A DNA stretch of 64,000 nt from Acidobacteriaceae bacterium (GTDB lineage: Bacteria; Acidobacteriota; Terriglobia; Terriglobales; Acidobacteriaceae). A program made the translations under genes and the position numbers. Each line of letters starts with the position of its first letter. Position 1 is the stretch's first letter. Of the stretch, positions 39,957 through 56,347 are shown in pieces. The DNA lies in assembly GCA_003131585.1 (NCBI GenBank), contig PKVW01000052.1, positions 1 to 64,000 of the forward strand, read 5' to 3'. The notes under the pieces were generated by a model. That model searched no databases and was not told where the DNA came from. It was given only the letters and a program-made list of their open reading frames with translations.

Positions 39957-40153
39957 GTGTGGGGACAGCCGCCCCTTCGACTTCGCTCAGGGCGGGCTCT
40001 CGTCTGTCCATTCGAGCGAAGCTCGATGTGCTTTTGTTCAGAGCGTTTTCACGGTTGCTGTACCCTGTTGGGAATTGTCGTTTCTAGAAATTGTCATCCC
40101 GACCGGAGCCTTTCATTCCCGAAGGGAATGAGAGGCGGAGTGGAGGGACCTGC
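39957..40153 (+). repeat. Palindromic repeats upstream of dppB
   Basis: Two units. 39961-40010: a GGGGACAGCC...GGGCGGGCTC imperfect palindrome, related to 13272-13293. 40091-40153: starts TCATCCCGACCGGAGC, has a core hairpin CATTCCC-gaa-GGGAATG, and ends GGAGTGGAGGGACCTGCT; this is the same repeat that surrounds the GIY-YIG genes at 41.2-42.4 kb. Confidence 0.8.
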
Positions 40154-40178
40154 TGTTTCTGCACCGGCAACTGAATTC

Positions 40179-41093
40179 ATGCGCCTGCTTTTCCAACGCG
40201 TCCTCTATACCCTCCCAGTAATCTGGCTGGTCGTCTCGCTCGTCTTCCTGCTAATCCACCTCGTCCCCGGGGACCCCATCCAGCAGATGCTCGGCGAAGG
40301 CACGCCGCCCGCCGACATCGCGGCCACCCGCCACGCCTACGGACTCGACGCGCCGCTCGGCGAGCAGTACATTCACTACTGGAGAGGCGTTCTCCACGGC
40401 GACCTCGGCCCCTCGTTCCGCTACAACCAAAGCGTGACGCGCCTGCTCACCCAGCGCTATCCCTACACGCTGCAACTCACGCTGGCATCGCTGTTCGTCG
40501 CCATCATCCTGTCCATCCCCGCCGGCGTGCGCTCCGCCCAGCGCCGCAATCGCTGGGACGACCGCCTGCTCTCGGTCGTCAGCCTCTTCGGCCTCTCGTT
40601 CCCCAACTTCGCGCTCGGCCCCATCCTGATTCTTCTCTTCGCAATAAAACTCGGATGGCTCCCCGTCTCCGGCGCCGGCTCCTTCGCCAATATCATTCTT
40701 CCCGCCGTCACCATGGGCGGAGCGCTCGCCGCCATCCTCACCCGCATGGTCCGCACGTCGATGCTCGAAGAGCTCAGCCAGGACTACATCCGCACCGCCC
40801 GCGCCAAAGGCCTTCCCGAGCGCACCGTAGTCTACCGCCACGCCCTGCGCAACGCCATGATCCCCATCATCACCGTCCTCGGCCTGCAATTCGGCGCGTT
40901 GCTCGCAGGCGCAATCGTGACCGAGACGATCTTCTCCTGGCCCGGCATCGGCCGCCTCACCATCCAAGCCATCTCGAATCGCGACTACTATCTGGTCCAA
41001 GGCTGCATCCTGGCAATTGGATTGACGTATGTCGCCGTGAATTTTCTGACCGACGTGCTGTACTCGGTGGCGAACCCTAGGATAAGACAGTGA
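40179..41093 (+). CDS. dppB: Dipeptide/oligopeptide ABC transporter permease DppB
   Basis: 304 residues, six transmembrane helices. The N-terminus MRLLFQRVLYTLPVIWLVVS and LIHLVPGDPIQQMLGEG are typical of DppB/OppB; the EAA loop is ARAKGLPERTVVYRHALRNA. ATG 40179 begins exactly there; earlier frames run through a repeat. The 3' end has a second diverged copy at 42431. The usual partner permease dppC starts only at 48060, separated by accessory DNA. No binding protein or ATPase is in the window. Confidence 0.9.
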   Translation: MRLLFQRVLYTLPVIWLVVSLVFLLIHLVPGDPIQQMLGEGTPPADIAATRHAYGLDAPLGEQYIHYWRGVLHGDLGPSFRYNQSVTRLLTQRYPYTLQLTLASLFVAIILSIPAGVRSAQRRNRWDDRLLSVVSLFGLSFPNFALGPILILLFAIKLGWLPVSGAGSFANIILPAVTMGGALAAILTRMVRTSMLEELSQDYIRTARAKGLPERTVVYRHALRNAMIPIITVLGLQFGALLAGAIVTETIFSWPGIGRLTIQAISNRDYYLVQGCILAIGLTYVAVNFLTDVLYSVANPRIRQ

Positions 41094-41212: not shown

Positions 41213-41332
41213 ATCTGTCATCCCGACCGGAGCATTGCGATTGGGGTTATCAATCCCGAAACAAATCTGTCATCCCGACCGGAGCATTGCGATTGGTTCC
41301 TCCAATCGCAATGCGGAGTGGAGGGACCTGCT
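41213..41332 (+). repeat. TCATCCCGACCGGAGC repeat units upstream of GIY-YIG gene 1
   Basis: A half unit (41213-41262) and a full unit (41266-41332). The full unit carries a strong hairpin ATTGCGATTGG-ttcct-CCAATCGCAAT and ends GTGGAGGGACCTGCT, 14 bases before the GIY-YIG start codon. Confidence 0.85.
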
Positions 41333-41345
41333 TTTCGCATCCGCC

Positions 41346-41684
41346 ATGAAATCCCACTGCTACAGCGTCTACATCATCGCCAGCAAATCGCGTGTCCTCT
41401 ACATCGGCATGACGAACGACCTAAGCCGCCGAGTTTACGAACACAAGAACGATTTAACGGAAGGTTTTAGCAAGCAGTACCGCTGCCATCGCCTGGTCTA
41501 CTACGAATCCTTCGACGACGTGAACAAAGCAATCGACCGCGAGAAGCAACTCAACCGCTGGAACAAAACAAAGAAGGTATGGCTGATCGAGCGCCGAAAT
41601 CCCACATGGGAAGACCTCGCGGCGGAATGGTTTACCCGTCACAGGTACCAGCCAGACAAGCAGGTCCCTCCACTCGCCAGTTGA
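41346..41684 (+). CDS. GIY-YIG endonuclease domain protein, copy 1
   Basis: 112 residues. Single GIY-YIG domain: YSVYIIASKSRVLYIGMTND supplies the two motif strands (VYII, and YIG after a short turn), with SRRVYEHKN following, where the Arg and the Glu-bearing helix are expected, and AIDREKQLNRWNKTKKVWLI as the later helix. Related small proteins (COG2827/UPF0213) are presumed nucleases. The last eight codons (KQVPPLAS) are encoded by an inverted palindromic repeat. The gene is almost identical to copy 2 at 41918. Confidence 0.85.
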   Translation: MKSHCYSVYIIASKSRVLYIGMTNDLSRRVYEHKNDLTEGFSKQYRCHRLVYYESFDDVNKAIDREKQLNRWNKTKKVWLIERRNPTWEDLAAEWFTRHRYQPDKQVPPLAS

Positions 41685-41721
41685 CTGCTTCGCAGATCAA
41701 CTGACTCGGTCGGGATGACAG
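41660..41721 (-). repeat. Inverted repeat unit downstream of GIY-YIG gene 1
   Basis: Read on the minus strand it begins CTGTCATCCCGACCGAGTCA and ends GCGAGTGGAGGGACCTGC, with a central hairpin GTTGACTGC-ttc-GCAGATCAAC (imperfect). It is the same repeat as 41266-41332 in opposite orientation, so the nuclease gene is bracketed by an inverted pair. Confidence 0.82.
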
Positions 41722-41837
41722 TGTTTTGCAATCTCCTTGATGTTTGAATAACAAACTGAAATCTGTCCTCCGAGCGCACCATTGCGATCAGCCCTACCAA
41801 TCGCAAAAACAAAACCTGTCATCCGACAAGAATAAAA

Positions 41838-41904
41838 TCTGTCATCCCGACCGGAGCATTGCGATTGGTTCCTCCAATCGCAGTGCGTAGTGGAAGGACC
41901 TGCT
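41838..41904 (+). repeat. TCATCCCGACCGGAGC repeat unit upstream of GIY-YIG gene 2
   Basis: Nearly identical to 41266-41332, including the ATTGCGATTGG hairpin and the terminal GGAAGGACCTGCT, again 14 bases before the start codon. A half unit with CCATTGCGATCAGCCCTACC lies at about 41764-41812. Confidence 0.85.
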
Positions 41905-41917
41905 TTTCGCATCCGCC

Positions 41918-42223
41918 ATGAAAGCCCACTGCTATAGCGTCTACATCATCGCCAGCAAATCGCGCGCCCTCTACATCGGCATGACGAACGACCTAAGCCG
42001 CCGAGTTTACGAACACAAGAACGATTTAACGGAAGGTTTTAGCAAGAAGTACCGCTGCCATCGCCTGGTCTACTACGAATCGTTCGACGACGTGAGCAAA
42101 GCAATCGACCGCGAGAAGCAACTCAAGCGCTGGAGCAGAACGAAGAAAGTCTGGCTGATCGAGCGCCGAAATCCCACATGGGAGGACTTAGCGGCCGAAC
42201 GGTTCACGCGTCATATGTTCTAA
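41918..42223 (+). CDS. GIY-YIG endonuclease domain protein, copy 2
   Basis: 101 residues, over 90% identical to copy 1 through residue 100 (e.g. SKSRALYIGMTND, EGFSKKYRCHRLVYYESFDD), ending at RFTRHMF instead of extending into the downstream repeat. Start, spacing to the upstream repeat and leader sequence are the same as in copy 1; the two starts are 572 bases apart, consistent with tandem duplication of a whole repeat-gene unit. Confidence 0.85.
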   Translation: MKAHCYSVYIIASKSRALYIGMTNDLSRRVYEHKNDLTEGFSKKYRCHRLVYYESFDDVSKAIDREKQLKRWSRTKKVWLIERRNPTWEDLAAERFTRHMF

Positions 42224-42225
42224 CC

Positions 42226-42404
42226 GGACAAGCACTCGCCTCCACTCGTCAGTTGATTGGTTCCATCAATCACCCTCCTAAAATCTGTCATCCGAAACGA
42301 AACATTGCAGTTAGTTTTATCAATCGCACCTCAAAATCTGTCATCCCGACCGGAGCATTGCGATTGGCTCCTCCAATCGCAATGCGTAGTGGAGGGACCT
42401 GCTG
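42226..42404. repeat. Repeat cluster downstream of GIY-YIG gene 2
   Basis: 42230-42275 holds a degenerate inverted unit (CCTCCACTCGTCAGTTGATT with CATCAATCA). 42286-42318 is a decayed forward half unit. 42338-42402 is a full forward unit with ATTGCGATTGG-ctcct-CCAATCGCAAT and GTGGAGGGACCTGCT. The last unit runs directly into the dppB-tail copy. Confidence 0.8.
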
Positions 42405-42430
42405 GTTGCTGCGTGGGGATTGCGCTCGAC

Positions 42431-42497
42431 ATACGTCGCCGTGAATTTTCTGACGGATGTGCTGTATTCGGTGGCGAACCCGAGGATCAGGCAGTAA
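42431..42497 (+). pseudogene. Diverged copy of the dppB 3' end
   Basis: Encodes TYVAVNFLTDVLYSVANPRI-RQ-stop, identical in protein to the last 22 residues of DppB (41028-41093), but with many synonymous changes (acg/aca, acc/acg, gac/gat, cct/ccg, aga/agg) and TAA instead of TGA. No start or upstream coding part survives: a palindromic repeat precedes it. Confidence 0.88.
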
Positions 42498-44434: not shown

Positions 44435-44623
44435 ATGGCCGTAACCATGACATCAATCCGCTTGGACACTCAACTGGCCGACGAAGCCGTGAAAGTCCTC
44501 GGCGCGAAATCCCGCACAGACGCCGTGCACATCGCCCTGCGCGAGATCGTCGCGCTCAAGCGCTTCAAGAAGTTGATGAAGAAGTATGAAGGCAAGGCCA
44601 CGTTCGAAGGATACATTGATTGA
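44435..44623 (+). CDS. vapB: VapB-type antitoxin
   Basis: 62 residues: an N-terminal ribbon-helix-helix-like part (MTSIRLDTQLADEAVKVLGA, SRTDAVHIALREIVALKRFK) and a C-terminal toxin-binding tail (KYEGKATFEGYID). Family resembles VapB/DUF2191. AGGAAGAG precedes the ATG. The stop overlaps the toxin start by 4 bases. Confidence 0.85.
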   Translation: MAVTMTSIRLDTQLADEAVKVLGAKSRTDAVHIALREIVALKRFKKLMKKYEGKATFEGYID

Positions 44624-45021
44624 TCGTCGTTTTCGACTCGTCCGTCATCATTGACGATCTCCGGACACTACGTCATCGAGAGAGGATCCAATCCCTCATC
44701 GGTGTTATCCGGACATCTTCCGTAGTTTTGGCGGAGTTATGGCGGGGCGCGGCAAAGCCTTCAGATCGCGAGTTTCTAAGGGCTTTGGCGAGAAGTCACC
44801 CAATCCTGACTCCGACGGAAAAAAACTGGCTGGAATCGGGTGAAATACTGGCCCGCATGCGTGCCGATCACGGCTTCGCGCCGGCCAAATTGCGCGACCT
44901 GCATTTCGACGTTCTCATCGCTCTCACCGTCCGCTCCCACGGCGCTCGATTGATCACCACAGATCGCACAGACTTTGAGCTCATCAATCGTTATTGTGAG
45001 GTCAAACTGGAAGTGTGGTGA
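44620..45021 (+). CDS. vapC: VapC-type PIN-domain toxin
   Basis: 133 residues from TTG 44620. PIN nuclease acidic residues: D6 in VVFDSSVIID, Glu in VVLAELWRG, Asp in LHFDVLIALT and Asp in LITTDRTDFELI. VapC toxins cleave tRNA or rRNA; the co-encoded VapB neutralises it. The active-site set looks complete, so this module appears intact. Confidence 0.88.
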   Translation: MIVVFDSSVIIDDLRTLRHRERIQSLIGVIRTSSVVLAELWRGAAKPSDREFLRALARSHPILTPTEKNWLESGEILARMRADHGFAPAKLRDLHFDVLIALTVRSHGARLITTDRTDFELINRYCEVKLEVW

Positions 45022-56229: not shown

Positions 56230-56341
56230 ATGCGTCGCACAGAACGCGATCCTTCGGCGCGCTTCGCTTGTTCAGGGCAGGCAGCTCCGCGCGGCCCGCC
56301 TAGATCCTTCGCTGCGCAAAGAACGCTTGCTCAGGATGACA
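56230..56341 (-). repeat. Palindromic repeat of the GATCCTTCGC/AGGATGACA type
   Basis: 56302-56341 reads AGATCCTTCGCTGCGCAAAG then CTTGCTCAGGATGACA, and 56249-56280 has a second GATCCTTCGGCGCGCTTCGC. This is a dispersed palindrome common between genes here; on the minus strand it begins TGTCATCCTGAGC, close to the TCATCCCGACCGGAGC units at 40-42 kb. Confidence 0.7.
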
Positions 56342-56347
56342 ATTAAA

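Follow-up and report, generated by a model that had tools for sequence, protein, structure and literature searches.

Small GIY-YIG nuclease genes of Acidobacteriaceae and other bacteria are mostly bracketed by TGTCAT-tagged hairpin repeats

Small GIY-YIG nuclease genes of an Acidobacteriaceae bacterium, and their relatives in many other taxa, mostly lie between copies of a hairpin repeat that carries a TGTCAT tag. This association of gene and hairpin is real, strong and general. We consider it probable (roughly 0.7) that these are Ssn-type GIY-YIG nucleases bracketed by their own recognition hairpin, and that gene and hairpins form a unit which is gained and lost like a RAYT/REP module.

The gene pair lies in the window, a 64-kb stretch of DNA, downstream of an ABC transporter permease gene which we take to be dppB. 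Behind the permease follow part of a repeat, a complete repeat, gene 1, an inverted repeat, fragments, another complete repeat, gene 2, a decayed inverted repeat, a degenerate copy and a last complete repeat (Table 1). The original prediction for this array was largely right, and the phenomenon is wider than first noted; corrections concern the region downstream of gene 2 and the element near 56.3 kb. It had described two near-identical small GIY-YIG genes, and the two proteins indeed share 90% identity over 101 residues, their DNA showing 23 differences over 303 positions, with 12 synonymous and 10 changed codons. Both genes are preceded, as anticipated, by the same repeat at a fixed distance, the ATG lying 13 nt past the last base of the complete repeat in each case, and the inverted repeat behind gene 1 does supply the last codons of this gene together with its stop. 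A nearly identical inverted copy is also found 3' of the ortholog at locus L118. The inverted copy claimed behind gene 2 has decayed and lost its tag end, and it is followed by a degenerate and an intact forward copy. The gene-less copy ahead of the permease was confirmed. Near 56.3 kb, a related repeat had been reported; the element is present (56302-56345), inverted and directly ahead of another gene, but it belongs to a different subtype, TGTCATCCTGAGC. Elsewhere in the window, at 44435-45021, two small adjoining frames have translations that look to us like a VapBC-type toxin-antitoxin pair.

Table 1. Features of the GIY-YIG array and its surroundings in the window
Feature	Position	Strand	Basis
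Solo repeat; ends as in the others, inner palindrome different (CATTCCC...GGGAATG)	40092..40154	+	Sequence reading
dppB-like ABC transporter permease gene, upstream of array	40179..41093	+	Open reading frame; matches in 37/45 genomes of the genus
Permease gene 3' end, copy A	41024..41093	+	Repeat family D6
Repeat copy, 5' part only (head and one arm)	41216..41250	+	Sequence reading
Complete hairpin repeat 5' of gene 1	41268..41332	+	Sequence reading, folding
Gene 1, GIY-YIG nuclease, 112 aa	41346..41684	+	Open frame; PF01541 54.3 bits
Inverted repeat copy with another inner palindrome; covers last codons and stop of gene 1	41658..41722	-	Fold z -0.8
Degenerate repeat fragments between gene 1 and gene 2	41766..41834	+	Repeat families D3, D7
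Complete hairpin repeat 5' of gene 2	41840..41904	+	Sequence reading, folding
Gene 2, GIY-YIG nuclease, 101 aa	41918..42223	+	Open reading frame; PF01541 61.0 bits
Inverted repeat 3' of gene 2, decayed and missing its tag end	42227..42275	-	21 nt, 76% complementary; fold z +0.5
Degenerate forward repeat copy	42286..42330	+	Repeat families D2, D3
Complete forward repeat, end of array	42339..42403	+	Sequence reading, folding
Permease gene 3' end, copy B; encoded residues as in copy A	42428..42497	+	tblastn 100% over 22 residues

Complete copies of the repeat start with TGTCATCCCGACCGGAGC, continue with an inner palindrome and end in GCGGAGTGGAGGGACCTGCT or close variants. The 16-nt head has five exact occurrences within the 64-kb window; with up to 3 mismatches it is found at 8 sites, compared with 0.96 expected, and none of 100 shuffles reached 8. 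The tail occurs at 5 sites in the window against an expectation of 0.04. Four complete forward copies fold better than their shuffles (z of -4.4, -3.4, -4.5 and -2.9; for the last of these, 3 of 200 shuffles fold equally well). Folding of the inverted copy after gene 1 and of the decayed one after gene 2 did not rise above that of shuffles.

The repeat is dispersed in its own genome (3.93 Mb searched, on 75 contigs). We found 36 sites for TCATCCCGACCGGAGC with up to 2 mismatches and 5 for the pattern read backwards, and the broader TGTCATNCYGANCG gave 58 sites with none in the reversed control. Most of the copies listed retain both ends while the inner palindromes vary, and many copies are intergenic stem-loops. 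At L029 and other places in this genome, ends and inner palindromes seem to have been reassorted, with an inner palindrome much like the one in the window repeats occurring between other ends as well. The genome has six PF01541 matches, one in a uvrC-like frame of 650 aa, one weak and partial, and four in small stand-alone genes. All four small genes are tagged on both sides, the downstream tag of gene 2 being part of a forward copy. Outside the window, L004 and L003 carry other subtypes, TCATTCCGAAGCGCG with GAGGAACCTGCT and TCATGCTGAGC with GCATCCCTA, respectively.

Both window proteins match PF01541 (54.3 and 61.0 bits, cut-off 22.6), and the Pfam scan returned no second domain. All 26 relatives compared share Y9, Y19, R29, H33, E66 and N85; the catalytic residues among these are, we assume, the Tyr, Tyr, Arg, Glu and Asn (Y9, Y19, R29, E66, N85). 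An AlphaFold2 model (mean pLDDT 86.5) has the UPF0213 protein 1zg2 as its nearest structure (E 1e-4), followed weakly by Slx1 (E 5e-3), a GIY-YIG nuclease of branched DNA. The nearest solved structures are the UPF0213 proteins 1zg2 and 1ywl; E. coli yhbQ, unlike the genes studied here, stands in a tight gene order without a bracket, and no such repeat was found at its locus. When the window genes are compared with their L118 ortholog, most codon changes turn out to be synonymous (32-33 vs 17), which points to selection on the protein. A defence system was rejected, as PADLOC gave no match. A phage origin was rejected too, since PHROG gave only weak matches and, among 11 phage records, 10 belonged to Rhizobium phages with 34-36% identity.

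The bracket is widely conserved. We analyzed the best 80 of 194 confirmed related loci, which come from Acidobacteria, Flavobacteria and other Bacteroidia, Gemmatimonadetes, Thermomicrobiales, Armatimonadota, Calditrichia, Patescibacteria, Bradyrhizobium, Eggerthellaceae, Clostridia, Planctomycetes and others. When hexamers were counted in the 150-nt flanks without a prior motif, TGTCAT/ATGACA came out on top both in the 41 Acidobacteriota loci of this set (95%, control 9.6%) and in the 39 other loci (95%, control 10.3%). With YGTCAT taken as the tag, 68 of the best 80 loci are tagged on both sides and 78 on at least one side; both-sided tagging was seen in 1.7% of 484 and 1.2% of 488 slid controls. 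The two untagged loci are L069, which has the variant CTGTCACC, and L109. L105 and L122, short proteins with frame problems, were retained in the tag counts. The stop codon TGA lies inside ATGAC plus one base in 12 of the same 80 loci, and in 11 of them this hexamer is ATGACA, the tag itself. Upstream and downstream flanks resemble each other with a score of at least 34 in inverted orientation at 47 and in direct orientation at 45 of the best 80 loci, whereas 2 of 1881 slid controls reached this score in inverted orientation. Among 124 other open frames of at least 150 aa at the same loci, an upstream tag was found in 18, a downstream one in 25 and a tag on each side in 1.

Further samples from the family gave a similar picture. 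A PF01541 survey of 40 genomes provided 20 small genes, chosen more or less by score rank while passing over places already sampled, and 20 genes of 608-663 aa that were taken as uvrC. Both sides were tagged in 15/20 small genes versus 0/20 uvrC-like genes, at least one side in 18/20 versus 2/20, and the flanks were similar to each other in 18/20 versus 0/20. Two of these small genes had been sampled before (L230, L239); if they are left out, 13/18 are tagged on both sides and 16/18 on at least one. Another 49 family loci, obtained after merging 12 identical proteins (146 to 134) and removing 5 already among the 80, showed both-sided tags in 37 and at least one tag in 48; among these loci are the own genome's four genes, as well as 11 loci picked from repeat-rich genomes or for a nearby repeat. 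Bracket orientation varies, the nearest tags pointing outward in 45/79 and 26/48 loci when proteins shorter than 80 aa are excluded. In Sinorhizobium and Sphingobium, inspection by eye shows CCTCATCCC and CGTCACCCC repeats beside the genes. The slid, gene and uvrC-like controls rule out chance or composition as the source of the bracketing. Relatives that lack the repeat, which would speak against the proposed link, are single exceptions, and the predicted RAYT/REP-like layout around a different nuclease fold is strongly supported.

On a Planktothrix plasmid (L207), a small GIY-YIG gene stands among TGTCATTCTGAG repeats between an MmeI-like restriction gene and DISARM drmA. The small GIY-YIG relative on a Rhizobium tumorigenes plasmid (L208) has no visible YGTCAT bracket, and other Rhizobium replicons contain parts of the ~0.9 kb that follow this gene.

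Genes and repeat subtypes are paired. In a comparison of 24 small genes from 7 genomes, the upstream flank matched the downstream flank of the same gene with a median score of 63.5, compared with 25.5 for 66 pairs between paralogs (p = 1.5e-4). The tandem pair of the window counts against this difference, the two flanks of several single genes match no better than chance, and the test retains L194 (a 393-aa frame with uncertain start) and L189 (chance-level scores). Protein identity also correlated with repeat-arm similarity at exact-tag loci with proteins of 85-169 aa, with r = 0.31 for 84 Acidobacteriota loci (0 of 1000 permutations) and r = 0.17 for 39 other loci (6 of 1000 permutations). 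The within-genome test weighs more, because host relatedness may contribute to the correlation.

Across 250 genomes of the family the link between repeat subtype and gene is only moderate. TCATYCCGACCGGAGC was found in 67 genomes, with none in the reversed control, and a GIY match at E <= 1e-10 in 154; 51 genomes had repeat and gene, 16 the repeat only, 103 the gene only and 80 neither. The gene was thus present in 51/67 genomes with the repeat subtype and in 103/183 without it (p = 0.005, odds ratio 2.5). Genomes with the gene only are expected where the genes carry other subtypes. All five genomes with at least 20 copies have a GIY gene. Two of the 13 genomes with at least 10 copies are without a GIY match, namely G079 (76% complete) and G141 (99% complete, 13 copies). 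In G066, G137 and G240 (81, 98 and 42 copies), the flanks of the four genes examined carry GACCGGAGC, GACCGAAGC or closely similar forms. The four genes examined in G107 and G233 (68 and 28 copies; two genes per genome) have CCTGAGC- or other subtypes instead, apart from one with masked and unclear flanks. The idea that copy number follows the gene is therefore only weakly answered, with the frequency difference in its favour and two of the five most repeat-rich genomes carrying another subtype at the genes examined. Other flank repeats are dispersed to different degrees. The L097 genome contains 52 copies of its flank repeat, the L101 and L106 genomes (Bradyrhizobium) 37 and 8, and the L099 genome 10, half of these within 1.4 kb of one another on the contig expected to hold the gene. 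All copies found in two Arenibacter genomes are around the gene.

Alternatively, the repeats could be older and have spread by other means, and a homing-type GIY-YIG gene would insert in or beside the REP pairs that it cuts. GIY-YIG homing endonucleases of the I-TevI type have the same catalytic fold and spread by cutting their target, and the nucleases described here share the fold and possibly this way of spreading. Many flanking copies are complete, hairpin pairs that enclose no gene occur (L118, 241-405, by eye), and some genomes have repeats and no gene match, all as such homing would have it; the match to TIGR01453 is weak and below cut-off. The window proteins differ from I-TevI-type enzymes by having no second domain in the Pfam scan and by their hairpin bracket. 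Own flanks match better than those of paralogs in the same genome, and protein and repeat vary together; both observations disfavour homing, because insertion into any hairpin at hand would produce them only if the specificity differed too. The Arenibacter repeat, found only around the gene, also argues against it. We regard homing into pre-existing hairpins as unlikely.

Congeners differ in the presence of GIY-YIG units at two loci, dppB and guaA. For dppB, which has 37 matches in the genus, 21 loci were examined, the window included, and five of them have GIY genes downstream of the permease. The window and L118 hold a window-type gene, and L166, L167 and L169 a second type with 45-49% identity to gene 2. 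At L169 the start codon adjoins the repeat (GCGAAGGACCCATG), and a solo window-type repeat is also retained. The remaining congeners include L179, where dppB is followed by a relic of two tags and the first codons of a second-type gene, which is then truncated; a similar truncated copy lies beside the full gene of L167. At 15 of the 21 loci, neither a GIY gene nor a TGTCAT tag was found in the stretch examined (26 to 1497 nt). dppC directly adjoins dppB at only 4 of these 15; downstream order differs elsewhere, and the other 11 may have been rearranged. Compared by eye, the spacers do not align between loci, so they define no insertion ends.

At the second locus, a repeat-GIY-repeat unit of G066 sits between a conserved gene and a gene that, judging by its sequence, is presumably guaA. 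Seven of nine genomes searched match this locus, and the other six have both genes adjacent; the upstream gene is 56-63% identical between G066 and these six, which are not close strains. The ends of the inserted unit (L217) show a rough match, GACAAAGCAAAACTG and GACAAAGTAAACTG, which could be a target duplication. The pattern of presence and absence at the two loci looks like gain or loss of a compact unit, whatever the route. Occupied and empty sites in congeners thus support the self-propagating unit of the original prediction, although movement itself is inferred.

The last ~70 nt of the permease gene are present twice, flanking the window array, and encode no amino-acid difference; the original prediction had overlooked this duplication. 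A plain target-site duplication is disfavoured as their source, because the two copies, whose differences are confined to synonymous or stop positions, look like two coding ends that once evolved apart. The doubled permease end may record recombination with related DNA.

We compared the arrangement with known systems. Ssn nucleases, reportedly described in Nature Communications in 2025, are said to be GIY-YIG enzymes with many homologs that cut single-stranded DNA at the Neisseria repeat NTS, and Neisseria Ssn reportedly regulates DNA uptake or recombination. An open frame of N. gonorrhoeae, which we take to be Ssn, has 47.7% identity to gene 2 over 84% of it and lies among six CGTCATTCCCGC...GGGAATC (CGTCATTCCCGC...GCGGGAATC) copies in 3.3 kb. 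The systems have in common a small stand-alone GIY-YIG protein and a short many-copy repeat, and the work may already mention flanking repeats; the present array differs in repeat sequence, in its long and variable inner palindromes, in the tandem duplicated gene and in the phyla concerned. The window genes are accompanied by a many-copy repeat, which may be the target of their nuclease. The original prediction knew of no described system of this kind, which is probably too strong a statement given that the Ssn family reportedly combines a nuclease of this fold with a repeat from the superfamily found here. Titles and the beginnings of abstracts, with most subscription papers out of reach, did not join GIY-YIG genes with bacterial palindromic repeats, and COG2827 and YhbQ are absent from the accessible part of the text of PMC1564403.

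The tag fits the published superfamily of CGTC/TGTC-tagged REPs. These end in CGTC, in many cases TGTC or CCTC, with stems whose first letters are A and T, 8-9 bp in length with loops of 4-5 nt and a CCA tail; they occur mostly as head-to-head pairs in five phyla and include Neisseria dRS3 and Rickettsia RPE (PMC3733652). They 'apparently lack a dedicated transposase', and no associated enzyme gene was reported as of 2013 (PMC3733652). The TGTCAT tag shares the terminal CGTC/TGTC followed by a stem starting with AT, whereas many Acidobacteriota copies are longer and composite and have other tails than the form given there. By eye, the copies in Flavobacteria, Bradyrhizobium and Neisseria come close to the form with 8-9 bp stem, 4-5 nt loop and CCA tail.

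The layout itself resembles that of RAYT/REP elements (REPtrons, REPINs), in which a single nuclease gene is bracketed by hairpins that are also dispersed in the genome, as found here. RAYTs are HUH tyrosine transposases of the IS200/IS605 group with GTAG repeats; here a GIY-YIG nuclease goes with YGTCAT repeats instead. Membership in the RAYT/REP group is ruled out by the fold (PF01541 as sole match, GIY-YIG-like model) and by the YGTCAT tag, and RAYT/REP stands as a working analogy.

The Neisseria system raises a second alternative, according to which the nuclease serves the host by cutting its own single-stranded repeats to regulate DNA uptake or recombination, and the bracket is an element of control or protection rather than of spread. 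Selection on the protein, seen in the comparison with L118, and the position of the gonococcal homolog among CGTC repeats are in line with such a function. Paralogs with unlike repeats in one genome, the relic, the tandem duplicate and the unoccupied sites fit a selfish or mobile unit better, and we hold a host function in place of spread to be quite improbable; a host function and a mobile unit do not exclude each other. It is hardly credible that the repeats are terminators or markers of insertion-tolerant intergenic DNA in which small genes tend to sit, since, although many copies are intergenic stem-loops, both-sided tags mark 68 of the best 80 of 194 loci and 15/20 small family genes versus 1/124 control genes and 0/20 uvrC-like genes, and own flanks pair specifically within genomes.

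The reading we prefer is therefore a mobile unit of nuclease gene and recognition hairpin. The bracketing is suggestive of an enzyme that recognises the hairpin and of a joint spread of gene and hairpins. The recognition site of each nuclease would be the TGTCAT-tagged hairpin, a CGTC/TGTC-type REP, around its gene; gene and hairpins, with tags mostly outward, would together make up a compact element of about 0.5-0.6 kb, subject to gain and loss at intergenic sites, and dispersed solo hairpins and hairpin pairs may be non-autonomous copies or relics of it. We infer binding, single-strand cleavage, a copying step and transposition. The enzyme would bind tag and stem of its own hairpin in single-stranded DNA, on the lagging strand or in DNA that has been taken up, and then nick the single-stranded hairpin; copying or repair from the nick would spread the hairpin or the whole unit. 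Two findings slightly lower our confidence in this reading: the genes examined in two repeat-rich genomes lack the expected subtype, and of the 15 unoccupied dppB loci no more than 4 are clean.

There is perhaps an even chance that, across bacterial phyla, the CGTC/TGTC-tagged REP superfamily has its missing dedicated enzymes in small GIY-YIG nucleases. They would then be a second, unrelated class of REPtron-founding enzymes, each evolving jointly with the hairpin that belongs to it and promoting the spread of gene unit and solo hairpins alike. Should the bracketing nuclease prove to be the enzyme of CGTC-tagged REPs, a large class of bacterial intergenic repeats would gain an origin and a testable way of spreading. 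As each gene carries a candidate target at its own ends, the targets of many site-specific nucleases may be predicted from their flanks.
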